This document shows, in pieces, positions 3,666 to 19,383 of a stretch of 36,480 nucleotides of DNA (the first letter of the stretch is position 1; each line of letters starts with the position of its first letter). The notes beneath the pieces are model-generated. The model did not search any database. It worked only from the letters and a program-made list of their open reading frames with translations, and was not told where the DNA came from. A program made the position numbers and the translations under genes. Source of the DNA: Methanolobus sp. (GTDB lineage Archaea > Halobacteriota > Methanosarcinia > Methanosarcinales > Methanosarcinaceae); contig NZ_JADQBY010000021.1 in assembly GCF_016278385.1 (NCBI RefSeq), positions 1 through 36,480 of the forward strand, read 5' to 3'.

Positions 3666-3681
3666 CCCGGAGATGTTTTTC

Positions 3682-4470
3682 ATGAAGGCAAATAAAAAGA
3701 CCGGAATGTTCGCAGATGCACGGGCTCAGGTGGGTATCGGTACTCTTATCATTTTTATTGCTATGGTGCTTATTGCTACGGTAGCCGCTTCTGTGTTAAT
3801 ACAGACATCTGGTATTCTCCAGCAGCAGGCACAATCGACCGGTAAGCAGGCAACCCAGGAAGTTTCATCTAATCTTGTGATTAAAAATATTGAAGGTACT
3901 CGTGCAAAGAATAATGCTACTGATATGGCAGGCAATATCTCTCTGTTAAAGATACGGGTCGGCCTGAATGTAGGGAGTTCTCCTGTAGATCTTAATCAGT
4001 TAATAGTTACCATCACAGATGGGACTAACACCAACGACCTGCTTTATGCGAAAAATGACAAGACCCATGATTACGGGATGAGTAATTTTTCGTCGGATGC
4101 CACTGCTGCAACTGTTAATCTAGGAGCTTTGCTTAAGGACACGCAGACAACACCTGGTGATAATGCAAAGTATTTTTTCACGGTAAAGAAGATCAGGGAC
4201 GAGGACCTGTCATTTACCCAAAGTAACCCTATTATGAATACCGGGGATCTTGCGATTATCTATGTGTCCACGGTATCTGGTGATGATCTTTCATTTACTA
4301 CAATAGGTGAAGTAAATACTGCTGGTGGGCAGAAGGATTCTAACCTTGATATAGGGCCACGCGCAAGCGTTATTATAGTACTTACGCCTGAGTACGGTGC
4401 AACGACAATGGCAACCTTTTTAGCTCCGTCGTCGTATGGTACTAGGGAAACAGTCCAGCTCTATCCATGA
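3682..4470 (+). CDS. flaB: Archaellin FlaB, third copy
   Basis: This is an archaellum filament subunit of 262 aa. The true start is the ATG at 3682, preceded by GGAGATG; upstream in-frame codons run through the terminator hairpin and are not credible. Leader MKANKKTGMFADARAQ is followed by QVGIGTLIIFIAMVLIATVAA. The C-terminus is SSYGTRETVQLYP. Its insert around residues 115-165 resembles the first copy (TPGDNAKYFFTV) rather than the second. It lies only 33 bases before the next gene, so it links archaellin transcription to the surface-protein and deacetylase genes. Confidence 0.96.
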   Translation: MKANKKTGMFADARAQVGIGTLIIFIAMVLIATVAASVLIQTSGILQQQAQSTGKQATQEVSSNLVIKNIEGTRAKNNATDMAGNISLLKIRVGLNVGSSPVDLNQLIVTITDGTNTNDLLYAKNDKTHDYGMSNFSSDATAATVNLGALLKDTQTTPGDNAKYFFTVKKIRDEDLSFTQSNPIMNTGDLAIIYVSTVSGDDLSFTTIGEVNTAGGQKDSNLDIGPRASVIIVLTPEYGATTMATFLAPSSYGTRETVQLYP

Positions 4471-4503
4471 GTCGGATATTTCTTATATTTTATGAGGGAT
4501 GAT

Positions 4504-5265
4504 ATGAGCAAAAGAACTATCGTTTTACTGTTTATTTTATTATTCTGTTGTTTTGCTGTAAAAGCTTCAGCAGATGTTTCGTTTATCAATAATATTGAAC
4601 TGCATGATAAATCTATCACTTTTACAATACATGAAACATATACATTTGAGGATGCGGTGGGTTTCAGAGCGGATCTGGATGCAGACGACAGTGGAAATGT
4701 AAATGCTTCAGAGGTCGAAGTATACAGGGAAAGCTATCTACTAAATCACAAAGCCCAATTCTTAGAATATGTTCTAATCGATAATAGTTCACTTCCGTTG
4801 GAAATAGATTCTACTGATCTTCAGTTTGAAGGTGCAGAGGGTCTGGTTGATACTTCTCAGTTGAATGTAACAACAATAGTACAATATGGGGCAAATTCTA
4901 CAATTTCCGAAGGAAATCATAGTGTGTGGGTACTCGGTCATCCCCTCATTGACAATATGAGATTCGTTCTCCCTGCTGGTATGGAGTTGGTCTCATATGA
5001 TGGACTTGATAATGCATCACAGTCTGTGCAGGATGGACGTGTGGTACTTGAGGGTGTCAGTGGTATACGTTCCTTTATGTTAGAGGATAAGCCTGCATTC
5101 GAATACGCAGCATATATCACAATGCAGAAAAAGTCCATTTATAAAAACAGCTTTTTCCTACCCCTTCTGATTTTTATTGAGCTGATACTTGCATTAGCAG
5201 CATTATATATATATAGGATTAATAAAATAAACAAGATAAAAAAGCTCAATAATAGTATTCCCTAA
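4504..5265 (+). CDS. Exported membrane-anchored protein with a single EF-hand-like calcium loop
   Basis: The product is 253 aa from the ATG at 4504, chosen because GAGGG sits just upstream; an ATG four codons earlier overlaps that site. A signal peptide (TIVLLFILLFCCFAVKASA) leads into an extracellular domain. Around residues 53-64, DADDSGNVNASE fits the 12-residue EF-hand/dockerin calcium loop (D1, D3, S5, G6, V8, E12). A single helix (LPLLIFIELILALAALYIY) is followed by a Lys-rich cytoplasmic tail. I do not recognise the whole family. Its position directly after archaellins suggests a surface role linked to filament assembly or to sensing outside the cell; this is inference. Confidence 0.8.
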   Translation: MSKRTIVLLFILLFCCFAVKASADVSFINNIELHDKSITFTIHETYTFEDAVGFRADLDADDSGNVNASEVEVYRESYLLNHKAQFLEYVLIDNSSLPLEIDSTDLQFEGAEGLVDTSQLNVTTIVQYGANSTISEGNHSVWVLGHPLIDNMRFVLPAGMELVSYDGLDNASQSVQDGRVVLEGVSGIRSFMLEDKPAFEYAAYITMQKKSIYKNSFFLPLLIFIELILALAALYIYRINKINKIKKLNNSIP

Positions 5266-5290
5266 CCATCTATCTATTTACGGTGCTCAC

Positions 5291-6241
5291 ATGAAATACA
5301 GATCATCCTATATCATTTGTTTTCTTGTTCTTGCGGCTGCTATCTTTCACAGTGGTTGTATTGCCAAATCCCCCGAAGAATCAATCAACTCAACGGTTTT
5401 GGATTTTTTGAACGCTGTCAATGAAGATGATCCTGGTCTGGCTTATTCTCTATATGTCGGTAAGGATTTTCTTGCACCTGCAAGCATCACAATGATATTC
5501 AAGAATAAAGGTATAGGGCCGGGGACTATTACGGGAATCAATACTGTTTCCCAGGAAATAGTCGATAATATTGCTATAGTAAAAGTTGAATGTTCTGTAG
5601 CAACCCTTGACCTTTCCGGAAATGCAAAAACTACCACTGTAATTCCTATTTATTTCAGGTTGCAGGACAGTGAGCTAGGCTGGATCATAACAAGGGTTTC
5701 ATTTAATTCAGAGTTGACATTTGAAAACGTGGAGTTGGTCGACATTGAAGTGGAAAGTACCTCTATTGATCTAATTACTAATAATGCTCCTATCATAACT
5801 GTACTTGCTTTTAGTATGCTTGGTGCAGGACTTTATCTGGATAAGAAAGACAAGGCAAAGAAAAAAGAAAACAGCAGGGTAATGGATGTTTCAGGTGCAA
5901 CTCCCATACAGAAAGAATCCATAGCACAGTATGTGAGATTTGTTCCATCGCAGGATATAACTGTCGGAAAAGCTGCAAGTGTGGATGTATGGGTGAAGAA
6001 TTTTACACAAGAACCTTACGTGAATTTTGCAATCAAAGCTAAATTTGGGACTACACTTGAAGCGGAAAAGATCAATCTTTTCTTTGATACTATTGCTCCA
6101 GGTGAGACTATAAAAAGAACATGGATTGTAACAGCTAAAGTTTCTGGCTGGGCGTCTATTGAAGAGCCAACGGTTGTCTTTGATTTTATGAATACAAAGT
6201 ACATTGGTGTACTTGATCCTGTGTGGTTGCAGGTTCAATAA
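5291..6241 (+). CDS. Predicted lipoprotein with two domains split by a membrane helix
   Basis: The product is 316 aa. The N-terminus has a lipobox (FHSGC, Cys near residue 23). Residues ~30-150 (SPEESINSTVLDFLNAVNE, then alternating strands) look like an NTF2/DUF4878-type fold. A hydrophobic helix (ITVLAFSMLGAGLYL, about 172-186) is followed by a strongly basic stretch KKDKAKKKENSR and then a ~110-residue beta-rich domain with VWVKNF and APGETIKRTW, as in CARDB/Ig-like adhesion modules. By the positive-inside rule the last domain would be cytoplasmic, which is odd for that fold. It lies 25 bases after the calcium-loop protein and 18 before the deacetylase. Function unknown. Confidence 0.78.
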   Translation: MKYRSSYIICFLVLAAAIFHSGCIAKSPEESINSTVLDFLNAVNEDDPGLAYSLYVGKDFLAPASITMIFKNKGIGPGTITGINTVSQEIVDNIAIVKVECSVATLDLSGNAKTTTVIPIYFRLQDSELGWIITRVSFNSELTFENVELVDIEVESTSIDLITNNAPIITVLAFSMLGAGLYLDKKDKAKKKENSRVMDVSGATPIQKESIAQYVRFVPSQDITVGKAASVDVWVKNFTQEPYVNFAIKAKFGTTLEAEKINLFFDTIAPGETIKRTWIVTAKVSGWASIEEPTVVFDFMNTKYIGVLDPVWLQVQ

Positions 6242-6259
6242 GATTTGCAGGTGAAATTG

Positions 6260-8224
6260 GTGTCATCGGATAATAACGAGGTAGCGGAATCTTCTAAAAA
6301 GGAATCCTCAGATATAATGAAAAAGTTGAATGATGCTTTTTCATCTTATCTTGATGGAAAAGAAACAACAAGTACCGAAGGTGATTCATCTGAAGATGGT
6401 TCTCTTCTGGAACTGGTACGTTCTGGTATAATTGAAAAGCAAAAACAAGTTATGGAAGTTATTCCTGGGGTTGATGCCACAAATACTCCTGTTGAAGAGC
6501 TTAATGAAGATGAAGTTGAAACGTTGCTAGTTTCTGATGTGGATGAAACAGAAATCAATGCAATAATTCCAGATGTTTTATCAGGTGTTTTTGATGATTT
6601 CCAGTATCAGTCCGTTGAAATTGAAATAGCTGAAACAAAAGACGATGCAGGGGAAAAAGAAAGCATCTCTCATTATTCTACAAGTGTGACTGAGATTTTG
6701 AAAAAGAATCCAAACGTATCGGACAAGCCAGTTTCAACTGATAAAAAGGATAACTTGCTTGTCGCTTCGTTACATGCAAAGGATAACCTTTCTTTAAAAG
6801 ACTCTGTACCTAAGCTGAAGCCAAAGGACAGTTTGGATTCTGATTATATAGTTGTATCCAGGGCCTTTATAAAAAAGCCATTAGAACCTGCAAAACCAAA
6901 ACCTGAGCCTAAGGGACTGACAAACAGTCATGATACTGCGAAAAAAGAATCATCATCTTCTACTTTACTTTCTGAAGTGCCATCTGGAACTTCCGGGGTA
7001 AAGGAAGTAAAAAAGGTTGAAAGTACTAAACCTTTACAATCCAAAAGCACTCAAAAAGTTCCACAATCTCCTGTTATTTCAAAAAATGTAAAGAAACATA
7101 AGGTTCCAGAGAAGGCTGGCATCAATGATTCCGATAAACCTGTAAATATTGCATTTCTTTATAACAAAGATCATACAAGTCATGACGCTGCTTCTTTATC
7201 CTTAACTACTCATGAGAGACCTGAGCGTCTTATTAAAGCTATGTGGTATCTGGAGAAAAATAAGGTTTTTGAAGATGGTACATGCATTCTGACCGATAAA
7301 TTTGAGATGGCTGATGAAGCCGACCTTTTAAGAGTACATGAAGAATCATATATCTCATTTGTCCGTTCCTATGCTAGTGCAGGGGGAGGTTTTTTGGGCG
7401 ATAGTACTTATATGACCAAGACTTCCTTCGATATCGCAAAGATGGCGGCGGGAGCAGCCATAAGAGCAGGCGATATGGTTGTGGATAAGGAATTTTCACA
7501 TGCTTTTGTGCTTGCACGTCCTCCAGGTCATCATGCAAGTTCGCAGAAATATGGTGGCTTCTGTCTTTTCAACAATGCTGCTGTCCTTGCAAGACATCTG
7601 CAAAAACGCAGGAATGTGGGCAAAATACTGATACTTGATTGGGATGCACATGCAGGCGATGGTACAATGGAGATATTTTATGAAGATCCCACCGTTATGT
7701 TTATGTCTCTTCACAGAGATCCTCATGGTTTTTATCCTCGCAAGGGCTTCAGTACGCAGATAGGGGAAAAATCAGGTAAAGGGTATACTATAAACGTTGA
7801 AATGCCAGAGGGTGCAGGTAACGAAGAATATATGATGGCTTTCGATGAGGCTATTCTGCCTCTTATCCGTCATTTTGCCCCTGAGGTGATTATATTCAGT
7901 TGTGGATTTGATGCGTATTACCGGGAAAAAAATATAGGTTTGACTTTAGATTCTGATGGTTATCATCATATGACATCAAAAGTGCTCTCAGTATTTAACG
8001 GTCCAATGGTTTTCCTTATGGAAGGTGGTTATCATGATTTCAATGGGCAGTTATGTCATAGTGTGCTTAATGCTCTTCATGGAAAGCCAAATCCTGTAAG
8101 TGATCGCCAGGAAATCTCGAGTTATAAGCAGAATCTTAAAAAGCAAATATTCGCAGATACTCAGAAAAAAGTAGAGGAATCGAAAAAGACTAACCCGGTG
8201 CTTTCTTCACAGGTGTCCGGATGA
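6260..8224 (+). CDS. Histone-deacetylase-family hydrolase with a long disordered N-terminal region
   Basis: This is a zinc-dependent deacetylase of the HDAC/AcuC/acetylpolyamine amidohydrolase superfamily, which removes acetyl groups from lysine or small amines. The start GTG at 6260 is preferred because AGGTGA lies 5 bases upstream. Numbered from there, residues 1-290 are low-complexity and rich in Ser, Lys and Glu. The catalytic domain follows, with PPGHHA (H424, H425), zinc ligands in DWDAH (D462, H464), CGFDAY (D551) and the catalytic Tyr in EGGYH (Y591). All key residues are present. The tail is far longer than in usual archaeal homologues (~340-370 aa). It overlaps the next deacetylase by ATGA, so the pair is translationally coupled. 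Substrate unknown. Confidence 0.92.
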   Translation: MSSDNNEVAESSKKESSDIMKKLNDAFSSYLDGKETTSTEGDSSEDGSLLELVRSGIIEKQKQVMEVIPGVDATNTPVEELNEDEVETLLVSDVDETEINAIIPDVLSGVFDDFQYQSVEIEIAETKDDAGEKESISHYSTSVTEILKKNPNVSDKPVSTDKKDNLLVASLHAKDNLSLKDSVPKLKPKDSLDSDYIVVSRAFIKKPLEPAKPKPEPKGLTNSHDTAKKESSSSTLLSEVPSGTSGVKEVKKVESTKPLQSKSTQKVPQSPVISKNVKKHKVPEKAGINDSDKPVNIAFLYNKDHTSHDAASLSLTTHERPERLIKAMWYLEKNKVFEDGTCILTDKFEMADEADLLRVHEESYISFVRSYASAGGGFLGDSTYMTKTSFDIAKMAAGAAIRAGDMVVDKEFSHAFVLARPPGHHASSQKYGGFCLFNNAAVLARHLQKRRNVGKILILDWDAHAGDGTMEIFYEDPTVMFMSLHRDPHGFYPRKGFSTQIGEKSGKGYTINVEMPEGAGNEEYMMAFDEAILPLIRHFAPEVIIFSCGFDAYYREKNIGLTLDSDGYHHMTSKVLSVFNGPMVFLMEGGYHDFNGQLCHSVLNALHGKPNPVSDRQEISSYKQNLKKQIFADTQKKVEESKKTNPVLSSQVSG

Positions 8225-9297
8225 TACGTGTTGGTCTTACTTTTAATGTTAACCATCATCTTCATGATTCTATTTTGAATGGTTTTCCATGTCCTGAAAA
8301 TCCTTCCAGGCTAATCAAAATAATGGACTATCTGAAAGAAAAAAATCTGATTGATGGCTTCAAATGTCACATGTATGAATCAGAACCAGCTTCTGCAAGG
8401 GATATTTTACGCGTTCATTCTGCTAAGTATGTCAATTTAATCAGATCTTGTACAGGTAATTCTCAGTTGAACCCTGGTAACGATATTTTTGTATGTCCAT
8501 CTTCTTATGAAGTCGCTATGCATGCTCTGGGATGTGTTCTCAATGCCGGGGATCTGGTTGTTGATGGCAAATGTACGCATTCGTTAGCTCTGGTACGTCC
8601 CCCTGGTCATCATGCAGGGCCTGATGCGTCAAGTGGATTTTGTCTTTTTAACAACTCCGGCATACTTGTTAAGTATCTCCAGGAAATACATGGAATTGAT
8701 AGGATTGCGATACTGAATATTGATGCACATGCTTCTGATGGGACCTATGCTGTGTTTGAGGCAGATCCTAATGTGCTTTGTATATCTATACACCAGGACC
8801 AATCAACCTTATATCCGCACAAAGGTTTCATCAGAGAAATCGGTGCAATACCTGCACTTGGTTATTGTATTAACATGGAAATGCCTCCGGAGTCAAGCAA
8901 TCCCGAATATGGGATTTTCTATGATGAGGTTGCGGAAAAAGTTCTGGAAGAATTTGATCCGCAGTTAGTTATCCTTGAATGCGGATTTGATGCCTATTAC
9001 AAGGAACCTTTGACAAAATTGAACCTGACCATTGAAGGTTACTATAGAATAATATTTAAGCTTGCAAGTAAATGGAACGTTATAACTTTACTGGAAGGTG
9101 GATATCACGATGACCTCGGTCTTCTAACATCTGTTGTCCTGCGTGCATTGCTTGGTGAAGACAATGTTAAAGACGATGTGGACCTGGTCGATCTGCTTGC
9201 TTCAAGACATGTAAAGACAAGAAAAAATTTCAATGATAACTTGTTCCTTCTTAAAAACCGATTGAATCCTTACTGGGGATTATGGAACCGCGCTTAA
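8221..9297 (+). CDS. Histone-deacetylase-family hydrolase, second copy
   Basis: The product is 358 aa, the normal length for a stand-alone HDAC-superfamily deacetylase. The catalytic set is complete: PPGHHAGP, NIDAHASDGT (zinc ligands D and H), ECGFDAY (third zinc ligand) and LEGGYHDD (catalytic Tyr). It shares the fold and motif spacing of the preceding gene but is clearly diverged; for example, ASDG replaces AGDG after the metal site. The ATG overlaps the upstream TGA (ATGA). Two adjacent deacetylases followed by an acetyltransferase suggest a reversible acetylation system acting on a partner encoded nearby. Confidence 0.93.
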   Translation: MIRVGLTFNVNHHLHDSILNGFPCPENPSRLIKIMDYLKEKNLIDGFKCHMYESEPASARDILRVHSAKYVNLIRSCTGNSQLNPGNDIFVCPSSYEVAMHALGCVLNAGDLVVDGKCTHSLALVRPPGHHAGPDASSGFCLFNNSGILVKYLQEIHGIDRIAILNIDAHASDGTYAVFEADPNVLCISIHQDQSTLYPHKGFIREIGAIPALGYCINMEMPPESSNPEYGIFYDEVAEKVLEEFDPQLVILECGFDAYYKEPLTKLNLTIEGYYRIIFKLASKWNVITLLEGGYHDDLGLLTSVVLRALLGEDNVKDDVDLVDLLASRHVKTRKNFNDNLFLLKNRLNPYWGLWNRA

Positions 9298-9314
9298 ATT
9301 GATAGTTGGTAATA

Positions 9315-10220
9315 ATGTTTGAACTCGCAAAAACTGACGATGGAGTAACATTCTGTAAACTTGAGCATGCTTTTGAGCTGGACAAATTGAAGATTGGAGA
9401 ATTCAGTTATTTCAGGAAATATCTTGGTATGGCTGATTATCTCGCAAACTTCCGAAGCTGGCTTAAAAGACCTACAGTAGCTTTGGTGCTGGCAATATCT
9501 AATAATACTGTTGTCGGATGGGCTATGAATGAAAAGTGGAGCTCTCCTTCAAGCGATGGCAGGCCGGTATATGTGCTACGTGGAATCGAGATATCTCCTC
9601 AGCTTGCAAGAAGGGGTATGGGGAAAAATATGTTTTTCCTGATATCTAATATGCTTATGGGTCATGTTATTACAAAACCGGTGAATAAGACTGCAAAGCT
9701 GTTCTTTGAGTCCCTTAATTTTGAAGAACCTTCTCTAAAGTCTCCGGTGTATCTTAGTGATCATCCAGGTTATTTGATACTTGAGGAAGATCAGAAGGAA
9801 GCATTATCATTCAATGGGATTTCTTTGCTAGATGAAAATATAATGTCCTGCAAGCTTAAGATGTTCCCAAAAGAAATGTGTCTTGAAGCTACTAAAAAGT
9901 CGGCTAAGCCAGAGGCAATAGCCAGCTGTACGGTTATTGGAGATGATGCTGTTGATATTGTGGAAAATGAAGTGGATGTAACTCTCCAGCAGCAAGATTT
10001 AAAGCCAGAGCAACAAGAAGTAAAACCTGTTGATTCTCAGGAAGAGTTCATCTTCGATGGTAAGTTTATTGGTGAACAAAAAATGATGTCCCCCTGCAAA
10101 TGTGGGCATAATTTCGTGAACAAATATCAAGTTACAGGTAAAAGGACAGGCACTGCTTTTATTTGCACAAAATGTAATGGTGAAAGGTATTTCCTGCCTT
10201 TGAAGACGAAGTCAAAGTAA
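9315..10220 (+). CDS. GNAT N-acetyltransferase fused to a C-terminal zinc ribbon
   Basis: The product is 301 aa from the ATG at 9315 (a TTG nine bases earlier is possible). Residues ~60-145 form a GNAT acetyl-CoA-binding core: a strand VLRGIEIS followed by the pyrophosphate loop RRGMGK, then FFESLNFEE typical of motif B. A variable acidic, Gln-rich linker (residues ~200-250) leads to a zinc ribbon, CKCGHN and CTKCNGERYF, near residues 258-292. The ribbon suggests docking to a protein or nucleic acid. It closes the co-directional run begun by flaB2; a T-rich gap of ~220 bases with a new promoter follows. Confidence 0.85.
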   Translation: MFELAKTDDGVTFCKLEHAFELDKLKIGEFSYFRKYLGMADYLANFRSWLKRPTVALVLAISNNTVVGWAMNEKWSSPSSDGRPVYVLRGIEISPQLARRGMGKNMFFLISNMLMGHVITKPVNKTAKLFFESLNFEEPSLKSPVYLSDHPGYLILEEDQKEALSFNGISLLDENIMSCKLKMFPKEMCLEATKKSAKPEAIASCTVIGDDAVDIVENEVDVTLQQQDLKPEQQEVKPVDSQEEFIFDGKFIGEQKMMSPCKCGHNFVNKYQVTGKRTGTAFICTKCNGERYFLPLKTKSK

Positions 10221-10407
10221 ATTCATGAGATTCAATTACTTCTTTTTTATTTTCAGTTTTTCTTATTTAAATGTTTGATTTTGTATTTGTTTTCTGATTG
10301 TAAATGCAAAAAATGTATTTCATAAAAGCAGATGTTATTTATTTTAATTTTCAACAGAAGGTTATTAATACCGCCAATACAATATTAGTTATAATTATAA
10401 TACTACG

Positions 10408-10416
10408 TATATAATT
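10408..10416 (+). promoter_or_regulatory. TATA box of the CheF-like gene cluster; leaderless start likely
   Basis: TATATAATT lies with its centre about 27 bases before the ATG at 10439. Archaeal transcription begins about 25 bases downstream of the box, so the mRNA would start at or within a few bases of the start codon; no ribosome site is visible. The gap 10221-10400 is T-rich on its left side, compatible with termination of the upstream operon. Confidence 0.55.
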
Positions 10417-10438
10417 AAAGGATACGGGGTCTTTCCAT

Positions 10439-11026
10439 ATGGCTCAAGAGCAAGGTATAGCAAAAGTAGATCTTACTTATATTTATAAAGCAGTGATGAT
10501 GGGTAATTCCCTTTATTCCGAGAATTGGGAAAAAGGTGTTCTGTATCTTACCAATATGAACCTATGGTTCTCAGAGGGTGGGGGATGGTTGACAATACCT
10601 TTAAAAAGTGTAACCATGGTTGGTAGAGAGGTTACTGATCAGATTCGCATTAAGGCTCAGCGGACTATCGGTACTTCTCATGTACTTATGATCGATTATC
10701 TCCAGCCATCGTCTGTTGTAGAAGGGGCTACGGCTTCTGCTACTGCATTATTGGGTGGCAATGAAGCGATAATCAATACGCTAAAGACATATCTTCAACC
10801 GATGTGTGGTACTCCTCCGAAAAAACAATCGCTTTCTGATGTTGATAAAAAGCTTCTTTACATGCTTTCAACTGGTGTAAATGATTTGCAGAAACTTGGT
10901 TTTTTCATAGGTGTTGATAATGATACACTTGCTACCAGTTTCAAGAACCTGAGAGAACAAAATTTCTGCGATACTTCGGGAACACTTACCGAACACGGTC
11001 TAAAGCAAATCAGGGAGATGATGTGA
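10439..11026 (+). CDS. CheF-like (DUF439) taxis adaptor, single-repeat form
   Basis: The product is 195 aa. The N-terminal ~120 residues contain NWEKGVLYLTNMNLWFSEGG and WLTIPLKSVTMVGRE, the tryptophan- and strand-rich pattern of the DUF439 repeat. The C-terminal ~65 residues (LSDVDKKLLYMLSTGVNDLQKL) match the winged-helix-like end found in CheF. CheF links CheY to the archaellum switch in haloarchaea. Haloarchaeal CheF is longer, with two repeats; this copy has one. Placement downstream of archaellins fits a role in motility control. Assignment is by remembered motif pattern and is moderately sure. The leader is probably absent. Confidence 0.6.
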   Translation: MAQEQGIAKVDLTYIYKAVMMGNSLYSENWEKGVLYLTNMNLWFSEGGGWLTIPLKSVTMVGREVTDQIRIKAQRTIGTSHVLMIDYLQPSSVVEGATASATALLGGNEAIINTLKTYLQPMCGTPPKKQSLSDVDKKLLYMLSTGVNDLQKLGFFIGVDNDTLATSFKNLREQNFCDTSGTLTEHGLKQIREMM

Positions 11027-11060
11027 AATGAACTTAATCACCAAAAAGGAGGTGTTTTGA

Positions 11061-11972
11061 TTGGCTGACCCAGGTCTTCCTCCTTTCATGAGTGCCGGAG
11101 GGGCTCCTCCTACTATGTCCGATGGCAGTTTTGGACAGTCAATGGGTGCTTTTGGAGCAATGCTCAAATTACAGCAAAACATCAGTGATAGATTCCCAAA
11201 AGTTAAGGTTCCCTGGAGTGGAACCAGAGATTTCCTCAAAGCAAGTACTATTGAGATGATAAGATCTACTTCACTTTATCGTTTCCACATGGATTTCTTC
11301 CGGGAAATTGGTCTTGGTAACATGCAGTTGATATCATATGCTCCAATGCACTACATTTATGCAGTTCCCAATAATCCGGTGTGTAATTTCTACCCGGCAC
11401 TCAATAACCAGAAAGTGTGCGTAGCTACAACTGATGCTCTTCACAGGTTCTTCAGGGAGGATCTTGAACTTGAATGTACAGTTGAAGAGATCGAATGTAT
11501 CAAAAATGGCAATGATGTATGTAAGTTCAAAGTTGACCTCCAGCCTATATCTGCATACCAGGTAATGCTAGATGATCATGACAAGATGATACTATCAGGT
11601 ATCAGGCCACCTGTTGACGATAATGAATTAAAGGATAGAGTAAGGGCACTGACAGTGTATAAGTTACTGGAAAGTGGTCGTTTGTCAGAAATAGGCAATG
11701 CTTACATGCAATTTGCAAGCAGCATGAAAGTTGAGGAAAAGATATTCGATCCTCCCTGGAAACTCAAAGAAGAACTTTCTTCTATTGCTGATAGTCACAG
11801 TACGTTTGGTGGTGCATTTGGTGCAATGGCCAAAACAGTACAGGCACAGCAATCAGATAAGCCTGTAACTCCTGAACCAGTAGTCTCTGAGGAAACAAAA
11901 CAACTTCAGGAAGAAGCTAAAAAGACAGATAGTTTTGCCGAACTGCTTGCAAAAATGAAAAAAGGTCAGTAG
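11061..11972 (+). CDS. V4R-domain sensor protein
   Basis: The product is 303 aa, with a TTG start supported by a perfect GGAGGTG site six bases upstream. A Pro/Gly-rich N-terminus (to residue ~45) precedes a V4R (vinyl-4-reductase-like) domain at about 60-175, marked by SLYRFHMDFFREIG, a Cys in NNPVCNFYPALNN and the terminal motif ECIKNGNDVCKFKV. V4R domains bind small hydrophobic ligands or metals in signalling proteins. The C-terminal half is helical and charged and may bind partners. It ends in TAG and is 8 bases from the next gene. Ligand unknown. Confidence 0.72.
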   Translation: MADPGLPPFMSAGGAPPTMSDGSFGQSMGAFGAMLKLQQNISDRFPKVKVPWSGTRDFLKASTIEMIRSTSLYRFHMDFFREIGLGNMQLISYAPMHYIYAVPNNPVCNFYPALNNQKVCVATTDALHRFFREDLELECTVEEIECIKNGNDVCKFKVDLQPISAYQVMLDDHDKMILSGIRPPVDDNELKDRVRALTVYKLLESGRLSEIGNAYMQFASSMKVEEKIFDPPWKLKEELSSIADSHSTFGGAFGAMAKTVQAQQSDKPVTPEPVVSEETKQLQEEAKKTDSFAELLAKMKKGQ

Positions 11973-11980
11973 GGATATAA

Positions 11981-12346
11981 ATGTCAGGTTATAGATCAGT
12001 TTCAGCGAATAATCATCTGGGAGATTTCATAGGTGAATTTGTAAGGGTGATTACGGATAAATCCCATTACAGGGGCGAATGTGCAAGGATCGATCAAAAG
12101 AACAACAATATTCTCTTGATAAATGTTGTAATGAAAAACGACACCGGGTGGGTTGATATAAGTGGACGTATGCTGGTGATGGGACATTCCATCGAATCAG
12201 TCTATATAGAAAAAAGCTTTCCATTTGACAGCAATGAATCCCTGATACTTTCGATTGAGAATGGTTCATTGATGCCGGATTCAGGTCCTACATTTAAGGA
12301 CCTGACTAATTTAAATGAATCAGGATTCCCGGAGGACTATAAATGA
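11981..12346 (+). CDS. Small Sm-like/SH3-fold protein
   Basis: The product is 121 aa. Residues ~12-75 (LGDFIGEFVRVITDKSHYRG, then ARIDQKNNNILLINVV and GRMLVMGHSIESVYIE) follow the Sm1/Sm2 pattern of five strands with a G-x-x-V-R-V start and a D-x-x-x-N turn. An acidic tail of ~45 residues follows. It could be an RNA-binding LSm variant or a protein-interaction barrel. It overlaps the KaiC gene by ATGA, so the two are likely made in fixed proportion and may form a complex. The fold call is tentative. Confidence 0.5.
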   Translation: MSGYRSVSANNHLGDFIGEFVRVITDKSHYRGECARIDQKNNNILLINVVMKNDTGWVDISGRMLVMGHSIESVYIEKSFPFDSNESLILSIENGSLMPDSGPTFKDLTNLNESGFPEDYK

Positions 12347-13422
12347 GCGGTGAGAAAAGGATACCGACTGGTATCGCAGGTCTTGACAGGGTAATTGAAG
12401 GTGGAGTGCGTGATAACACAACTCTTCTGGTCGTTGGTTCAAGTGGTACTGGAAAATCTACCTTTGCTATGCAGTATCTTAACTATGGTCTTGAGCATGG
12501 CGAGAACGCTCTCTATATCAGTATGGAAGAACCTCCGGAGCAGATCATGCGTGAAGCAAAAATGCTAGGTTTTAATCTTGATGAGTATTATGAAAAGGAG
12601 CTTTTCTTCTTTCACTCAAAAGGTAAGGATTTCGTAAAGCTTGTAGATGAACAACTTCCTGCACTTGTAGCGGCTAATCAAAATTACGCCGTCAAAACCC
12701 GTGTTGTGATAGATCCTTTAACTCCTCTTACATGGGCTATACAGGATAAACAGGAGCAGCGTGAGGTCATCACAAAGTTGTTCTATACTTTAAAACAGCT
12801 TGGTCCTGTTCTCATCACAACTGAAGAGCACGCTTCCCCCGGAGAGACCATTGGTGAGGATGTGTTGATTCCTATTTATATGTCCGATGGTGCTGTACAC
12901 CTGAGTTACAGGCCAATCGGTGGTGCGTTTAACAGGGCTCTTGAAATCATCAAAATGCGTGCTACAAGGCATGGTGAAGAGGTATATCCATATATATTTG
13001 TTCGTGGTGTTGGAGTTGTTGTAAGAACCACTCCGCTAATGTCTGCAGAAGATGTGCGTAAGTATGACGATGTCTTTGATAAAGCTATAAGAACTGCTGC
13101 AGATCTGAGAGTCAATGAGAAAATACTTGAACGTCTTGTTTACGTGAAGGAGAACTGGTCATATCCGTTCTCTCCAAAGGAAACGCTGCAGATATTCTTC
13201 GAATCCCAAGGTCTAAATGATACATTGACCAAAGATGATCTTGCAAGAAGAAAAAAGGAAGAAGAACGCTCTCCAGAAGTCCCATTGGATATCGGTGAAT
13301 TATCCGGTGGAACCCTGCAGGTTGAAGATGCTGATCTTATGCCTGAGGATGTTCCAGATTCAAATGATGAAGGCCTTATAGAAATTGACAGCCTTAGTGA
13401 GCTGGAAGAATTGGTCCAATAA
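12343..13422 (+). CDS. KaiC-family RecA-like ATPase, single domain
   Basis: The product is 359 aa. It opens with the KaiC signature IPTGIAGLDRVIEGGV, then Walker A GSSGTGKST (residues 32-40), the paired catalytic glutamates in YISMEEPPEQI, and Walker B RVVIDPLTPL near residue 124. The domain ends near residue 240. A ~120-residue extension follows, with a helical segment and an acidic tail (EEERSPEVPLD, EIDSLSELEELVQ). Archaeal single-domain KaiCs act as phospho/ATP switches; ArlH of the archaellum motor is a relative. It is coupled to the Sm-like gene upstream and followed 19 bases later by the Roadblock gene. Confidence 0.9.
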   Translation: MSGEKRIPTGIAGLDRVIEGGVRDNTTLLVVGSSGTGKSTFAMQYLNYGLEHGENALYISMEEPPEQIMREAKMLGFNLDEYYEKELFFFHSKGKDFVKLVDEQLPALVAANQNYAVKTRVVIDPLTPLTWAIQDKQEQREVITKLFYTLKQLGPVLITTEEHASPGETIGEDVLIPIYMSDGAVHLSYRPIGGAFNRALEIIKMRATRHGEEVYPYIFVRGVGVVVRTTPLMSAEDVRKYDDVFDKAIRTAADLRVNEKILERLVYVKENWSYPFSPKETLQIFFESQGLNDTLTKDDLARRKKEEERSPEVPLDIGELSGGTLQVEDADLMPEDVPDSNDEGLIEIDSLSELEELVQ

Positions 13423-13441
13423 TTGCCTGAGGTGGGTTGAC

Positions 13442-14212
13442 GTGTCAGTAAAAAAATCAAAAGATGACCTTGAGGATGTCTCCCTTCTGAAGTTTGCTCT
13501 GGTCGCACAGTTAAAAAGGACATATCAATCCAGTGATGTGGATGTGCTTTTGTTTGCAGGGGCAGATGGAAAGATATATGCATCCTACATACCTGAAAGT
13601 ATCGGCCCTAAAATATTTGAGCTTACAAACCTTATCACCCATAACCTGTTACATGTGAGCCAGCAGCTTGCAATGGGACTTAAACAATCTGTCATTGAAT
13701 ATGAGTTTGGTACTGTTATTTTCTCTTCAGTTGGTCGTGGAGCTCTTTTAATCTCCCTGTTCACAGGAAAGGCTGATCTCTCAGAGAACATGCATAAGAT
13801 AGAGATTGCTAAACATGTGATGCAGCATATATTTGAACAGCGTCCAATGACTGCAGAGCAGTTGGCTACTTATCCGGAAGATGTGGCCGAAGAGTTACGT
13901 ATCCTGTCTAAAATAGTATTCAATGAAATGTATACTCAGTCTTCTGAATACAAAAAGAACATGCAGATACTTGCGGATATTAAAGAAAAGATTACAGGTG
14001 TTATGGGTAGGGGGGAAGTTGAGCAGGTACTTGCTATGGCTTTCAATGAGATTGCCTCCTCTCCAAAATGGATGACTGAAGATCTATGGCCTTTACTTGT
14101 TGAAATGATAATAAATGATCAAATAAGGCCGTTACATGGAGATTATGTTGCCGAGATATGTGAGGCTGAATGGATACCGGACATAAAACACAAACTTGAG
14201 TCTTTCGTGTGA
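13442..14212 (+). CDS. Roadblock/LC7-type regulatory protein
   Basis: The product is 256 aa from a GTG at 13442 with GAGGTGGG upstream; a longer frame reaches back into the KaiC gene and is rejected. Residues ~25-125 (VDVLLFAGADGKIYASYIPE, then VIEYEFGTVIFSSVG, GALLISLFTGKADL) have the strand-helix order of Roadblock/LC7, a fold that regulates small GTPases and NTPases. The remainder is all-helical and unrecognised. Being next to a KaiC ATPase, it may be that enzyme's regulator, as Roadblock proteins are for Mgl-type GTPases. This pairing is inference. Confidence 0.65.
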   Translation: MSVKKSKDDLEDVSLLKFALVAQLKRTYQSSDVDVLLFAGADGKIYASYIPESIGPKIFELTNLITHNLLHVSQQLAMGLKQSVIEYEFGTVIFSSVGRGALLISLFTGKADLSENMHKIEIAKHVMQHIFEQRPMTAEQLATYPEDVAEELRILSKIVFNEMYTQSSEYKKNMQILADIKEKITGVMGRGEVEQVLAMAFNEIASSPKWMTEDLWPLLVEMIINDQIRPLHGDYVAEICEAEWIPDIKHKLESFV

Positions 14213-14224
14213 TGGTGATCTGTA

Positions 14225-15973
14225 ATGGATGAGGAAATTTCGACCTTTAAAGCCAGTAATGCATATGTCCCTGTATATGAGGGTGAGGATGACAACACTA
14301 TGCTTACAGAAGATGTTATAGATACTGATAAGCTGATACTCGATAATGGAAGTATGGGTGAAAGTGAAGGTAGTTCTGCCATTGTTTATGAGCATGGGGT
14401 AGATGAAAGCCATGTCCGCGGTTCTGAACTTAGTCCTGAGATCATAAAATCTCTGGTTGTTTTCAATGAAGAGTCCCCAATATATGGTTCATGTGAAGAT
14501 ATAAGGGATACCTCTGATACTTCAGATGATACTTCATCTCTTGATATTGTTGATGATATAGGGACCTTTCAGAATGAAGATAAAGAATCATTCAATGAAC
14601 TTCAATCTCGTATAATTTTATTTGAGGACAGACTTGCAGATCTTCAGGCAAAGCTGGACAAAGCTCTTGAATCAAATGGTATTTTATTGTCTTCTTTAGG
14701 AAATGATCTTCAAAAAAGGGCTGATGGTTCAGAGCTAAATCAACTTAAAAAAGACTTTGATCAGTTTTCTAAGAAACTGAGGCGTGTAGTTCAGGCAGAG
14801 GATTCTGTAAATGCAGAAGCTCTTGACGCAACAAAGGTGCCTCCTGATGTTCTTGAGATTACTTATGCAAAGACTCTGAATGATCTTTATAGTGCTATGC
14901 TTGGGATATATGGTGACTGTGAATCTTCCGATATGGTGGAGAATGCCAGGGATAATGTACGTCAGTTCAGTGCTGGTGTTGATTTTTTCAGATTCGAGAA
15001 TGATACCTTCATAGTGAGGGGCCTGTCTGAAGCTATAGCTGCCAAAATAGTTTCTGTAAAGCAGATACATGGGACGTATATAGAGTTATTCAAAATGCTT
15101 TTCCAATATGTTCCTAACTATAACTCTCAGGATTTCCGGGCTTTTGTTGAAACCGGGAGCAGAGAATACACAATTGAAAAAGTAGTATCGCATGAGACTA
15201 GTATTGATAGGATGTTATCGGATATTAGTACATTCAGGGATGAGATTTCCAACATCACTGAAAATGTCAGTTTTATAGCTGAATTACAGAACAACCAGAT
15301 TGAGGAAATGGAAGGTAAGTACCAGGAATTTACTACTATGAGGAAGCAGATGAAGAGTATAGCCAAGGCTGTTAATCTGCATACTAAAGCTATAAACAAG
15401 CTGAATAAGACTCTTATAGACTTCCAGCATACATCCGGTTCAAAGCAGGATATTTCAAATATCATTGAAGCTCCTGATCTCACAAAAATAGAAGAGATGG
15501 TTGTTTCTAAAGCCAGCAAGGAAGAAATAACTATAATATCCGATGAGATGGAATCTTTCAAAACCAATGTAGAAAGTATGTTCGCCTCTATACAGCAACA
15601 GCTTGAAGAAAATATGCTCAGTTCCCGTGAACTTAAAGGCATTGAGGGTGAATTTTCAAGAGCCTCACAGATGACCGTCACATCAAATGGAATTGATGTA
15701 CAGGAAGATCTTCATCTTCTTCATGATGTTGAAAAGCCACAACCTGTTAGACTTGCTGATCTGCCCATAGAAGAAGTCATAACCAGTCAACTTTCAGTTC
15801 TTGGTTCTGCGACCCTCAAACAGCTTGAAAAACAGATAACAGAACAGGGTTTTTCAATAGATTTCGAAAAACTGTCCTTGGTAATGTCCTATCTTGAACA
15901 GGAAGAACTTGTCAATTCCACTAAAAAAGGCAGGTATACTTTTTATTTCGTGACAGACCCTGTGAATCTATGA
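14225..15973 (+). CDS. Long coiled-coil protein with a C-terminal winged helix
   Basis: The product is 582 aa. The first ~115 residues are acidic and Ser/Asp-rich. A first coiled coil (about 120-200), a globular segment with YAKTLNDLYSAMLGIYGDC (about 215-320) and a second long coiled coil (about 330-465) follow. The C-terminal ~75 residues (TSQLSVLGSATLKQLEKQI, then LSLVMSYLEQEELVNST) look like a winged helix. I do not recognise the family; the ArlD/E C-terminal motif is not visible. It could be a scaffold for the signalling proteins upstream. It starts 12 bases after the Roadblock gene. Confidence 0.75.
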   Translation: MDEEISTFKASNAYVPVYEGEDDNTMLTEDVIDTDKLILDNGSMGESEGSSAIVYEHGVDESHVRGSELSPEIIKSLVVFNEESPIYGSCEDIRDTSDTSDDTSSLDIVDDIGTFQNEDKESFNELQSRIILFEDRLADLQAKLDKALESNGILLSSLGNDLQKRADGSELNQLKKDFDQFSKKLRRVVQAEDSVNAEALDATKVPPDVLEITYAKTLNDLYSAMLGIYGDCESSDMVENARDNVRQFSAGVDFFRFENDTFIVRGLSEAIAAKIVSVKQIHGTYIELFKMLFQYVPNYNSQDFRAFVETGSREYTIEKVVSHETSIDRMLSDISTFRDEISNITENVSFIAELQNNQIEEMEGKYQEFTTMRKQMKSIAKAVNLHTKAINKLNKTLIDFQHTSGSKQDISNIIEAPDLTKIEEMVVSKASKEEITIISDEMESFKTNVESMFASIQQQLEENMLSSRELKGIEGEFSRASQMTVTSNGIDVQEDLHLLHDVEKPQPVRLADLPIEEVITSQLSVLGSATLKQLEKQITEQGFSIDFEKLSLVMSYLEQEELVNSTKKGRYTFYFVTDPVNL

Positions 15974-15991
15974 AATGCCAGATGATATAAA

Positions 15992-16753
15992 ATGTCAATT
16001 GAAGGTTTGAGTGTATTACATGTAGCTGGAAATATCAGTTATGGTGTATTAGAAACAGATTTATCAGTAGATCAACTTAATATTGATATTGGACAATCTA
16101 ATAATGTAGGTTTCAATTATTTCCATAACAAGTTTGGAATGCCATACGATTTCCTGCTTAAAAGTAGTATAAGTTCCGGACATTGTCTTTTTGTTGCTGT
16201 AAAGGGCTTAAAACTTCTTGGGTTTGCCCGGTTTGAAAAGATAGTGGAAGATACTGAAAAGACTTACAGGGGCAAAACAAGTATTGTTCATCATTCTGTT
16301 CACCTGCTCAGGAGTATAGAGGTACATCCTTCTAACAGGCATGTAGGCATAGGACGTTTGTTGTTTTCAATATCGGTGAATCATTTGAAGAGCAATGTTA
16401 TAACCATGCCTGATAACCTGGGGGCAGCCAGGTTCTTTAAGGAAAAACTAAAATTCACAAAGTTAAATCCTGCTAACAGTGGTCTGTCTTCAAGATACAA
16501 CAATTATCTTATACTTCCATATCCTCGGGCTAAGAACATGTTGAAGATCATGGCTGGTAATTATCCTCGCATGGTCATGCCTGAACTGATAGCTAGGTAC
16601 GAATCACTTAAGTTTAAGGTCAATATGGGTAAATCAATATCAGAGGGAGATGTTAGTGAGTTCCAATTGCTTTTTGAAAATTCACAGGAACTTCTGGATA
16701 GGAAATTGATGAATGAAATGAATTTATTCTTAAAAGGATTTGAAAATGAATAA
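15992..16753 (+). CDS. GNAT-like N-acetyltransferase, second copy
   Basis: The product is 253 aa. The core at about 65-165 contains LLRSIEVHPSNRHVGIGRLL, a GNAT motif A with the acetyl-CoA pyrophosphate loop RHVGIG, and AARFFKEKLKFTKL as motif B. The pattern is close to that of the zinc-ribbon GNAT at 9315 (LRGIEIS, RRGMGK, FFESLNF), so the two are probably paralogues, but this one lacks the ribbon and instead has a helical tail. It lies 18 bases after the coiled-coil gene. Substrate unknown. Confidence 0.8.
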   Translation: MSIEGLSVLHVAGNISYGVLETDLSVDQLNIDIGQSNNVGFNYFHNKFGMPYDFLLKSSISSGHCLFVAVKGLKLLGFARFEKIVEDTEKTYRGKTSIVHHSVHLLRSIEVHPSNRHVGIGRLLFSISVNHLKSNVITMPDNLGAARFFKEKLKFTKLNPANSGLSSRYNNYLILPYPRAKNMLKIMAGNYPRMVMPELIARYESLKFKVNMGKSISEGDVSEFQLLFENSQELLDRKLMNEMNLFLKGFENE

Positions 16754-16777
16754 TTGTATGATAGTCCAGGTGATATT

Positions 16778-17359
16778 TTGGCAAATTTAGATGTTCAGCG
16801 GTTGCGTAAAAATCTATTGAAATATTATAGTAAATATAATGTATTGCCAATAAGTACGTATGAATTGACAGGTAGCATGGATGCTGGCAGTTGTGCTGGT
16901 GTAATAGATGATATTACTAGTTATCTTCTCAGGCCTGTAGAAAGGAATATACGTCTTGAATTATCACAGATGTTTAAGGAGTGTGAGAATCCAGAGATTC
17001 CGTATTTTGAAGTTGTAATGGATATCATGCAATTCATGAATGAATTTGTGGGTGATTCTCATACGGTTGAACTTATTTTTGCCAGGGTAAATAATGATGT
17101 TGCAAGGAAGAAGCTGGAAGTAGAAGATAAGATCTATTATAAAAGCGATGAATGGAACTCGGGAATAGCTGAAGATGCAATGCAAAAGCTCAGGGATTCA
17201 GGGACAGAAAGGGATTATCAGCTTATGATCGATCTGCTTACAGAAGTACTTTCACACTTTACAAATGAGGAAGGAACAAAGAATGTGCGTATGAAATTGA
17301 ATAATATTATAAAAAATCACAGTCAGCGTGAACTGAATACTCTGGATCTGCATCTTTGA
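16778..17359 (+). CDS. Unrecognised helical protein
   Basis: The product is 193 aa from TTG at 16778, chosen because AGGTGA sits four bases upstream; an earlier in-frame TTG at 16754 directly follows the previous stop but has no such site. The protein is predicted helical and charged, with no Cys pair or nucleotide motif. It is the last gene of the CheF/KaiC/Roadblock run, and a small hairpin shared with the convergent gene follows. No family is recognised. Confidence 0.65.
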   Translation: MANLDVQRLRKNLLKYYSKYNVLPISTYELTGSMDAGSCAGVIDDITSYLLRPVERNIRLELSQMFKECENPEIPYFEVVMDIMQFMNEFVGDSHTVELIFARVNNDVARKKLEVEDKIYYKSDEWNSGIAEDAMQKLRDSGTERDYQLMIDLLTEVLSHFTNEEGTKNVRMKLNNIIKNHSQRELNTLDLHL

Positions 17360-17396: not shown

Positions 17397-18074
17397 TCAG
17401 AAAACTATTCCATCATCTGTGATACTGAATTTATGCTTCCCCATGTCAAAGTCGCTTCCTTTTTCCTTTATTATTTCCATGTACCTGTGAGGGGTCTGGC
17501 CATCGTTTTCTATGCCAAGCTGAATTACGGTATCGAACATATAAGGCCATAAACTTGAATACATATCAGAAGCATTAGTTTCACAGGTTACCATTAGTAG
17601 TATGTTTTGTTCATCAAATTCCTGAAGAAGATTCTGAACAAAAGCCCTCAGTTCACACTTATAGAAAGGTCTTTCATCGAATGTACTTTCAATATCTTCT
17701 AATACATTAATAGTGTCTATTACAACTCTGGAAGGTTTATTTTTCAGTATATTTTCATTCAGGTATTCAAAAATTGCAAAGTCTCCTTTTGCCATAACAT
17801 CTGAACTGATGGAGTAAATACTCAGTTTTTCCATAATGTTTATTTCATCATAGAATGAGAATGAGGACAAAGTCCTGATTATTTTATTCGTTGACTCAGA
17901 GAGCATTGAAACATAAGCACATTTTTCTCCCTGCTTTGCGGCATTGAACAAAGACTCCATACATAAATTGGTCTTACCCGTTCCGCATGAACCCGTTACC
18001 AGGATTGAAGATGGCTTGATAAAACCTCCATGTAGAAAACTGTCAAATTTAGGAATATGGGATGGGCTTCTCAT
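17397..18074 (-). CDS. KaiC/ArlH-like ATPase without the catalytic Glu pair
   Basis: The product is 225 aa, about the size of ArlH. It keeps the start pattern IPKFDSFLHGGF, an intact Walker A GSCGTGKTN (about residues 28-36) and Walker B RVVIDTINVL (near 117), but where KaiC proteins have SMEE it reads VSMLSES, so the usual Glu pair is missing. It may bind rather than hydrolyse ATP. It is convergent with the KaiC/Roadblock cluster and divergent from the wHTH/MinD pair. A TATA-like stretch near 18105 implies a very short leader. It is a KaiC-like protein; equivalence to ArlH is not shown. Confidence 0.8.
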   Translation of the reverse strand: MRSPSHIPKFDSFLHGGFIKPSSILVTGSCGTGKTNLCMESLFNAAKQGEKCAYVSMLSESTNKIIRTLSSFSFYDEINIMEKLSIYSISSDVMAKGDFAIFEYLNENILKNKPSRVVIDTINVLEDIESTFDERPFYKCELRAFVQNLLQEFDEQNILLMVTCETNASDMYSSLWPYMFDTVIQLGIENDGQTPHRYMEIIKEKGSDFDMGKHKFSITDDGIVF

Positions 18075-18177
18075 GTGCTTCTATTATTCTCTATGCATTG
18101 ATATTTTATAAGTTTGTCGTAAATCTAAAAAGATTAAGACATTAATCTTCATACTACGGCAAATACATTTAAGCAAC

Positions 18178-18187
18178 TTTATATATT
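18178..18187 (+). promoter_or_regulatory. TATA box of the wHTH/MinD-like operon
   Basis: TTTATATATT lies about 63 bases before the ATG at 18245; transcription is expected near 18208, leaving a leader of about 36 bases. Confidence 0.5.
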
Positions 18188-18244
18188 ATCAGCCCAATTA
18201 AATTGCATATTAAATGCAAAACACTTTTCTGTATGTTGATAATC

Positions 18245-18652
18245 ATGTCTGACCTTCATAATAATAATGGAATTTTGGAATATATGCGTGATATAAACGA
18301 CCGTTTAAAATCACTGGAATTGCGTATGGCTGATCTTGAATCCCGTAATTCATCGCATGTCAATGATAAAATGGCTGCTTTTCTTACAGTTCCAGATTCT
18401 ATCCGTAAGTCTCTGTTTGCTGTTTCTAAACTTACTTCTTGCACAGCAGATGAGGTAAGTGAAATAACAGGAAGGCACCGTTCCATTGAAAATAAATATC
18501 TTAATGAGCTCTACAGGGCCGGATGGCTTGAAAGAGAAAGAAGAGGTAAAAAGATCTATTACTCTTTAAGCAAAAAAGCGGACAATAAGGGTAATGAATA
18601 CTGGTCTGCAGTGGAAGAGGTTGAAAATAAACTTAATCAATTACTTGGGTGA
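18245..18652 (+). CDS. Coiled-coil plus winged-helix DNA-binding protein
   Basis: The product is 135 aa from the ATG at 18245. Residues ~8-35 form a heptad-like helix (ILEYMRDINDRLKSLELR), probably a dimerisation coil. Residues ~50-115 form an ArsR/MarR-like winged helix: SKLTSCTADEVSEITGR, recognition helix IENKYLNELYRAGWL, wing ERERRGKKIYYSLS. It is followed 5 bases later by a MinD-like ATPase, a pairing typical of ParB/ParA-like or FlhG-type regulatory couples. Target unknown. Confidence 0.8.
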   Translation: MSDLHNNNGILEYMRDINDRLKSLELRMADLESRNSSHVNDKMAAFLTVPDSIRKSLFAVSKLTSCTADEVSEITGRHRSIENKYLNELYRAGWLERERRGKKIYYSLSKKADNKGNEYWSAVEEVENKLNQLLG

Positions 18653-18657
18653 ATAAA

Positions 18658-19383
18658 ATGCTTCTAAGTTTCCATTCTTATAAAGGCGGTACCGGGAAAA
18701 CAACATTTGTTGGAAACCTTGGTGTCATGCTTGCACAACAGGGTAAGAAAGTATGTATTATCGATACTGATGTGAATGGACCAGGTTTGCATTCATTGTT
18801 CGATATAAGGTATGGTATGACTTTGATTGATTTTCTACAGGGTCTTTGCAGTGCTGATGATGTTGTTTACAGGTACGATAATAGTGATGTTTACATAGTT
18901 CCTTCAAAAGCCTGTGAGGAAGATATATCTGCTATGTTCAGCACGCCGGGTGAAGCAAGAGAAAAAATGCTGACTCTCATTAAGAAAATAGGGAATAAAT
19001 TAGATATTGATTATTTTCTCTTTGACTGCAGCCCTGGTATTAATAAATCAAGTCTTTTAATTTTAAATATAGTTGATAAGGCAACGATTGTATCGACTAT
19101 TGATGTTCAGGATATAAGGGGTACCTATGTATTGTCAAGTATGTCTGCCAAACTTGGGACTCATGCTTCTCTCCTGTTCAACAGGATTCCCCTAGATAAA
19201 AAAGACGATATCAATGACATAATTATTGATTTCAGTAATAAGCTTGGTACAGAACTTCTGGGACTTGTATCCTATGATGAATCTGTAGCAAAAAACTGGT
19301 CGCGTAAAATAGCCATGAAGGATAATCCGGACTGTGGGTATTGTGACCAGCTGAAAAAGATAGCACAAAAATTGATTCGTTAG
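18658..19383 (+). CDS. MinD/ParA-family ATPase
   Basis: The product is 241 aa from the ATG at 18658, with GGGTGA five bases upstream overlapping the previous stop; a GTG at 18649 is also possible. The deviant Walker A YKGGTGKTTF is at the N-terminus, followed by VCIIDTDVNGPGLHSLF (switch I region) and the Walker B stretch YFLFDCSPGINKSS. Members of the family position cell structures, including flagella (FlhG), or segregate DNA. The C-terminal amphipathic MinD helix is not obvious. It ends in TAG. With the upstream wHTH it forms a two-gene operon near the motility-type genes. Confidence 0.88.
   Translation: MLLSFHSYKGGTGKTTFVGNLGVMLAQQGKKVCIIDTDVNGPGLHSLFDIRYGMTLIDFLQGLCSADDVVYRYDNSDVYIVPSKACEEDISAMFSTPGEAREKMLTLIKKIGNKLDIDYFLFDCSPGINKSSLLILNIVDKATIVSTIDVQDIRGTYVLSSMSAKLGTHASLLFNRIPLDKKDDINDIIIDFSNKLGTELLGLVSYDESVAKNWSRKIAMKDNPDCGYCDQLKKIAQKLIR

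Follow-up and report, generated by a model that had tools for sequence, protein, structure and literature searches.

A KaiC, Roadblock and CheF-like gene block with deacetylases and acetyltransferases that tracks a CheF-less chemotaxis system in the Methanosarcinaceae

Why should two deacetylases and two acetyltransferases be encoded in a single run of genes with archaellins and a KaiC-type ATPase? The question is raised by a stretch of Methanolobus DNA of 36,480 nucleotides, referred to here as the window, which corresponds to positions 1-36480 of contig C52 (NZ_JADQBY010000021.1) in a genome of 2.88 Mb. The block in question (6245-17359) encodes two zinc deacetylases (HDAC1 and HDAC2), an acetyltransferase (GNAT1), a CheF-like protein (CheFl), a V4R protein, a small Sm-like protein, a KaiC-type ATPase, a Roadblock protein, a coiled-coil protein (CC), a second acetyltransferase (GNAT2) and a protein of 193 amino acids (aa). 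CheF (PF04283), an archaeal chemotaxis adaptor reportedly presented by Schlesner in 2009, is described as joining chemotaxis to the archaellum, and the archaellated, chemotactic methanogens considered here apparently manage without it. The genomic evidence suggests that the block may be a discrete signalling module that, in place of CheF, connects one chemotaxis system lacking this adaptor to the archaellum, a reading to which we give a probability of roughly 0.55.

Is the block a unit at all? All genes from 2864 to 17359 lie on the + strand, with intergenic distances of -4 to 34 bp and a sole exception of 218 bp between GNAT1 and the CheFl gene, which divides the run into two likely transcripts. 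The run starts with two archaellin genes (2864-3622 and 3634-4470, + strand; PF01917), followed by the genes of two conserved and predicted membrane-anchored proteins without any match above the Pfam cut-off (u4492, 257 aa, and u5291, 316 aa with a lipoprotein-like signal; 4492-6241, + strand). The initial annotation had described a co-directional stretch that begins with archaellins and continues into CheF-like, V4R, Sm-like, KaiC and Roadblock genes; this layout stands, except that the 3′ limit lies at about 17359 and not at 16753, and that the Sm-like assignment is weak. It had also suggested comparing gene neighbourhoods in other Methanosarcinaceae, where a conserved linkage of the HDAC pair, the GNATs and KaiC would support its reading. 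The order archaellin, u4492, u5291, HDAC1, (HDAC2), GNAT1, CheFl, V4R, Sm-like, KaiC, Roadblock, CC, (GNAT2) and (193-aa protein) recurs, with single parts lost, in Methanolobus, Methanomethylovorans, Methanohalobium, Methanosalsum and the genus g3, and is thus not confined to close relatives. Wherever a locus of the family extends far enough upstream, HDAC1 and GNAT1 are found ahead of the genes from CheFl to CC. Of the 112 family genomes, 38 carry orthologues of the HDACs, and precisely these 38 also carry orthologues of this KaiC; we therefore consider the block as one unit, in which enzymes that write and erase acetylation stand beside signalling genes. The order kept in five genera, together with the 38/38 co-occurrence, rules out chance proximity, and the sharing of this order by five genera rules out an artefact of close relatives. 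The gene that closes the module, encoding the 193-aa protein (16778-17359, + strand; no Pfam match), is kept beside it in Methanolobus, Methanosalsum, g3 and some Methanomethylovorans. Outside the family, a single contig carries the core (locus L105, JAEHCK010000110, labelled Thermoplasmata), with CheFl, V4R, KaiC, Roadblock and CC at 19-57% identity.

If the block is inherited as a unit, what does it follow? It is missing from 30 of the 67 archaellated genomes, and on this ground we rejected the idea that it is a general component of the archaellum. The trp-archaellin locus is present without the block in a Methanolobus (G128) and in G091, G094, G184 and G106, the last of which also lacks u5291. 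In G128, the genes flanking the position of the block directly meet, and the genome keeps the archaellins, u4492, u5291 and ArlH while lacking the block and CheA together. The u4492 and u5291 genes occur in the archaellin locus of genomes with the module and, among the five sampled genomes without it, u5291 was found in four and u4492 in one; both are part of the archaellin locus rather than of the module. All 38 block genomes have a strong CheW, as well as a co-linear CheA that we call type B (56-85% identity, 38/38, the copies of G144 and G146 being truncated by contig ends). A full-length CheA of type B occurs in none of the other 74 family genomes, and the contrast of 38/38 with 0/74 gives a Fisher value of 9e-31, in which related genomes are counted and the counts are not independent. 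The genomes that keep archaellins without the block also lack its type of CheA, having either no CheA or a Che system that contains CheF; it is the chemotaxis system, more than the filament, that the block follows.

The initial annotation had suggested a post-translational switch on the archaellum or on the signalling ATPase. The distribution does not support the archaellum filament as a target or main theme of the locus, given that archaellin-bearing genomes lack the block and that the block co-occurs with one chemotaxis system. It could still be argued that the acetylation enzymes act on archaellins, either on their lysines or on the amino sugars of archaellin glycans: GNATs modify flagellin sugars in some bacteria, and in the window HDAC1 starts 3 bp after the archaellin, u4492 and u5291 genes, with a similarly close arrangement in relatives. 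We find this very unlikely, however, as the HDAC/GNAT module is missing from the five genomes named above despite their archaellin locus, and in Methanosalsum natronophilum the module has no archaellin next to it; furthermore, the block holds no glycan genes and the HDACs and GNATs look cytoplasmic.

How, then, does the CheA of the block genomes reach the motor? We found canonical CheF in 14 family genomes with a hidden Markov model (HMM) and in one more (G093) with BLAST, all without the block, and detected none in the 38 block genomes in the HMM scan, an imperfect search that missed the CheF of G093. The block is present in 37 of the 67 archaellated genomes and CheF in at least 14, with no genome holding both; in the other 16, the HMM scan showed neither. 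Two of these 16, G095 and G099, have the kind of CheA that goes with CheF-containing systems, and a CheF was probably overlooked there; the genome G175 is incomplete and its CheA fragmentary, and the remainder gave no CheA match. When the che operons were read gene by gene, a complete operon (MCP-CheW-CheY-CheB-CheA-CheC-CheR-CheC-CheD-CheC) without CheF was found directly 3′ of the block in a Methanosalsum genome (G147), and most of such a CheF-less operon directly downstream of the block in M. natronophilum (G145), with CheA located elsewhere. The window genome has the same CheF-less type of operon on contig C6. In G091, G093, G107 and G148 (loci L183-L189), CheF lies in a different, CheF-containing che operon, and this che type and the block look, apparently, mutually exclusive. 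Three things had escaped the initial annotation: how far the homology to CheF goes, the lack of canonical CheF, and the presence of a che operon beside the block in Methanosalsum. We also observed a second type of archaellum in other Methanosarcinaceae (G091, G093, G107 and G148), with its own arl cluster and the CheF-containing che operon.

A replacement of CheF would need a protein that can do its work, and the candidate is CheFl (10439-11026, + strand). In profile comparisons with hhalign it aligns to residues 91-242 of CheF with a probability of 97.4 and an E value of 1.1e-11, a region that comprises the second PH domain and the C-terminal domain of CheF. The C-terminal domain of CheF binds phosphorylated CheY (CheY-P), and its PH domains have been proposed to dock on ArlCDE (PMC9126983). 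The C-termini of both CheFl and CC resemble a winged helix-turn-helix (wHTH). As a separate observation, the Thermoplasmata-labelled contig has an extra small open reading frame (ORF) between CheFl and V4R that is PH-like by eye and might be the first PH domain of CheF, which CheFl is missing.

The same wHTH-like ends suggest another explanation, in which the block, comparable to CirA of Haloferax, is a KaiC-hub regulator of the transcription or expression of archaellum and chemotaxis genes and not a direct relay from CheY to the motor. Its wHTH ends would act on DNA or on regulators, and the acetylation enzymes would tune it. It is in keeping with this that motility of Haloferax volcanii is influenced by CirA, a KaiC-like protein (PMC13286277), that KaiC and Roadblock genes are known beside archaellum and type IV pilus (T4P) loci (PMC4858521), and that the V4R protein of the block resembles the transcription factor MsvR. 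However, the wHTH-like end of CheFl corresponds to the C-terminal domain of CheF, a known binder of CheY-P (PMC9126983), and archaellated genomes without CheA lack the block, yet would need control of archaellum expression all the same. Such a regulator would also leave the missing CheF unexplained, and we regard it as unlikely.

What could the remaining core proteins contribute to a module that replaces CheF? The V4R protein (11061-11972, + strand) matches PF02830 weakly, with an E value of 1.2e-6, and an MsvR model with 2.4e-7. Four of its cysteines (C108, C120, C146 and C154) are invariant in orthologues, and the spacing of C120, C146 and C154 (26 and 8 residues) equals that of C206, C232 and C240 in MsvR; its C-terminal tail is conserved as FAEL..KMKK. 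The product of 11981-12346 (+ strand) is only weakly assigned as Sm-like, on matches to LSM14 (E value 0.0037) and Gemin6 (0.014) that are both below the Pfam cut-off. The single-domain KaiC-type ATPase (12343-13422, + strand; PF06745, E value 1.3e-45) has Walker A and B motifs that are invariant in ten orthologues, and its tail ends in (E)GLIEID.LSELEELV, which is conserved in the members from Methanosarcinaceae and absent in the Thermoplasmata relative. More distant KaiC relatives, at about 35% identity, are found in other families of the order. The next ORF (13442-14212, + strand) and its orthologues are not recognised by Pfam, but its AlphaFold2 model (pLDDT 83) confirms a predicted Roadblock/LC7 domain, followed by a helical C-terminal domain, with Asgard Roadblock (Roadblock3) and MglB as best Foldseek matches (E value about 3e-6). 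Across the phylum this family occurs in 27 of 393 genomes, essentially only Methanosarcinaceae, with one weak match elsewhere. The CC protein (14225-15973, + strand) is conserved as far as the Thermoplasmata relative; its helical core (about residues 165-335) is modelled at pLDDT 82 and gave no Foldseek match under an E value of 0.3 and no recognised fold. A search of NCBIfam was uninformative for most of the block proteins.

As for the deacetylases, HDAC1 (6245-8224, + strand) and HDAC2 (8221-9297, + strand, overlapping HDAC1 by 4 bp) match the Hist_deacetyl family PF00850 in Pfam with E values of 1.4e-85 and 4.8e-76, and together they form the whole HDAC complement of the genome. Both were read as intact from the outset, and this was borne out: the Asp-His-Asp zinc ligands, the His-His dyad and the catalytic Tyr are invariant in the alignments of six HDAC1 and seven HDAC2 orthologues. 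HDAC2 departs from the pattern at residue 166 (window 8716-8718), where all orthologues have Asn in place of the first dyad Asp of DxDxH, and its activity or specificity may differ from that of HDAC1. HDAC1, of class II type, carries a low-complexity N-terminal extension of about 300 aa holding two conserved patches (about residues 21-35 and 111-125); in a disordered N-terminus such patches fit a recruited enzyme, which suggests protein recruitment. The split HDAC1 of the Methanosalsum genome G147 (2,138,444 bp) is found in two overlapping frames at L077:16412-17904, and could reflect a frameshift, a sequencing error or decay.

Regarding the acetyltransferases, the zinc ribbon of the first and the shared core of the two, both noted initially, were likewise upheld. 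In the window GNAT1 (9306-10220, + strand) is by itself under the Pfam cut-off, while all 11 of its 11 orthologues match PF00583 (best E value 2e-6); its acetyl-CoA motif A is partly degenerate, and the four cysteines of the C-terminal CxC...CxxC zinc ribbon (C264, C266, C287 and C290) are invariant. GNAT2 (15992-16753, + strand) is above the cut-off for PF00583 and has a canonical RxxGIG acetyl-CoA motif, with R116, G119 and G121 invariant. A comparison of the two with hhalign (probability 99.5, E value 2.8e-22) shows them to be genuine paralogues.

Do these enzymes act on proteins? One could propose that the deacetylases and GNATs have small-molecule substrates such as acetylpolyamines, and that their transcription together with the signalling genes serves metabolic coupling only. 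Many prokaryotic HDAC homologues deacetylate polyamines, among them ApaH, which has no Glu gatekeeper (PMC11532494). In the block enzymes, the site of the HDAC10-type PEG gatekeeper described in that work is occupied by Asn, Asp or Thr in HDAC1 and by Leu in HDAC2. The missing Glu leans against polyamine specificity of the HDAC10 type without being decisive, since bacterial polyamine deacetylases such as ApaH lack that Glu too. What makes this explanation decidedly unlikely, besides the missing gatekeeper, is that the nearest solved structures are HDAC6 and the bacterial HDAH for HDAC1 and HDAC6 for HDAC2, that the disordered tail of HDAC1 has conserved motifs, and that the enzymes are strictly co-inherited with the signalling core.

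Under the hypothesis that the block replaces CheF, CheFl would take up CheY-P with the C-terminal domain of CheF type, and its PH-like domain would dock on the motor switch (ArlCDE), while the KaiC ATPase and the Roadblock protein would form a gating core seated on CC. A redox-type input might come from the V4R protein through its MsvR-like cysteines. The GNATs and HDACs could reversibly acetylate lysines of the relay, for which CheY, CheFl, the KMKK tail of V4R and KaiC are candidates, and the acetylation would tune swimming to the acetyl-CoA or redox state. We infer the relay role from comparative genomics, and likewise the protein contacts, the redox input and protein acetylation with its targets. 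The fuller proposal, in which a complex of KaiC, Roadblock, V4R and the CheF-like protein replaces CheF and a dedicated GNAT/HDAC lysine acetylation serves as a second signal beside CheY phosphorylation, tying swimming to acetyl-CoA and redox, is one that we put forward tentatively.

Several observations weigh against a replacement of CheF by the block. CheFl has one PH-like domain only, the first PH domain of CheF being missing, and its PF04283 score of 19.7 bits is below the gathering cut-off of 25; for these two reasons we refer to it as CheF-like and not as CheF. Since the HMM scan missed the gene in G093, the absences of CheF are not proof, and the gene-by-gene reading of che operons covers four block genomes only. 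The tree of flanking genes suggests only about three independent losses of the block, with some weak branches (49-65%) and with G128 placed by one protein, and the co-occurrence counts are not independent because of shared ancestry. The composition also varies: Methanosalsum lacks GNAT2 and the HDAC1 of G147 is split over two frames; in M. natronophilum CheFl is encoded at a distance from the module, which has no archaellin gene beside it. Finally, the core of the Thermoplasmata contig has no HDAC, GNAT or archaellin nearby, and the acetylation arm is therefore seen as an add-on, separable from the core.

Around the block, the window contains a third archaellin gene (42-827; PF01917), the three archaellins having Pfam E values of 2e-28 to 2.5e-33. 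Divergently upstream of the archaellin pair (1538-2699, - strand) lie the genes of a predicted multi-pass membrane protein of 268 aa and of a wHTH-like ORF of 120-139 aa. This pair is duplicated in several species, one copy before each archaellin pair (L137, L132-L136), and is kept whether or not the module is present; it may be an archaellin-specific regulator. Downstream of the block, a second KaiC (- strand), a TrmB-like HTH protein, a ParA/MinD-like ATPase and a 223-aa protein (17397-20065) form a group that is separable from the HDAC-KaiC module, as it follows the archaellins without the module in G184 (L135). Transposase remnants with a DUF772 domain are found at 20346-21290 (- strand). 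Contig C52 starts inside the archaellin locus, and since contig C5 of the same genome (G000, L137) ends with matching trp, FtsY and 268-aa protein genes, the two contigs are probably adjacent.

How does this block compare with what is known? If the proposed role is true, the KaiC hub gains a concrete signalling partner, the archaeal HDAC and GNAT enzymes gain a defined local pathway, and it becomes directly testable how strict anaerobic methanogens might couple their redox and acetyl-CoA state to swimming. The initial annotation knew of no described system of this composition, and we found none in the literature searched, which did not include the 2017 mBio survey of KaiC, so that parts of this neighbourhood may have been noted before. 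With CheF, the block shares through CheFl the second PH domain, the CheY-P-binding C-terminal domain and the linkage to che and archaellum genes, in a complementary phyletic pattern; it differs in that CheFl lacks the first PH domain and shares its operon with KaiC, Roadblock, V4R, Sm-like, coiled-coil, HDAC and GNAT genes. The KaiC hubs (ArlH, CirA; Makarova 2016/2017) likewise place KaiC beside archaellum genes, with Roadblock reported at T4P loci, whereas the accessible parts of PMC4858521 and PMC13286277 report no association with HDAC, GNAT or CheF homologues. MsvR (PMC3729527) has the three cysteines at 26- and 8-residue spacing, although the V4R protein of the block belongs to a multi-protein module and has no N-terminal DNA-binding domain recognised by Pfam. 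Class II HDACs and the Haloferax enzymes HdaI and Pat are further points of comparison, in that HDAC and GNAT enzymes are known from archaea. For reversible acetylation as a means of tuning chemotaxis, the acetylation of CheY with CobB in Escherichia coli is a precedent (PMC2946573), where general enzymes and a sirtuin are involved, in contrast to the dedicated HDAC and GNAT paralogues inside a motility-signalling operon. MglB, of bacterial motility polarity, shares the Roadblock fold and a motility-related signalling role with the block protein, which has in turn an extra helical C-terminal domain, a KaiC partner and no MglA-like GTPase in its block. The components are of known kinds, while their assembly and the role in replacing CheF appear to be new.

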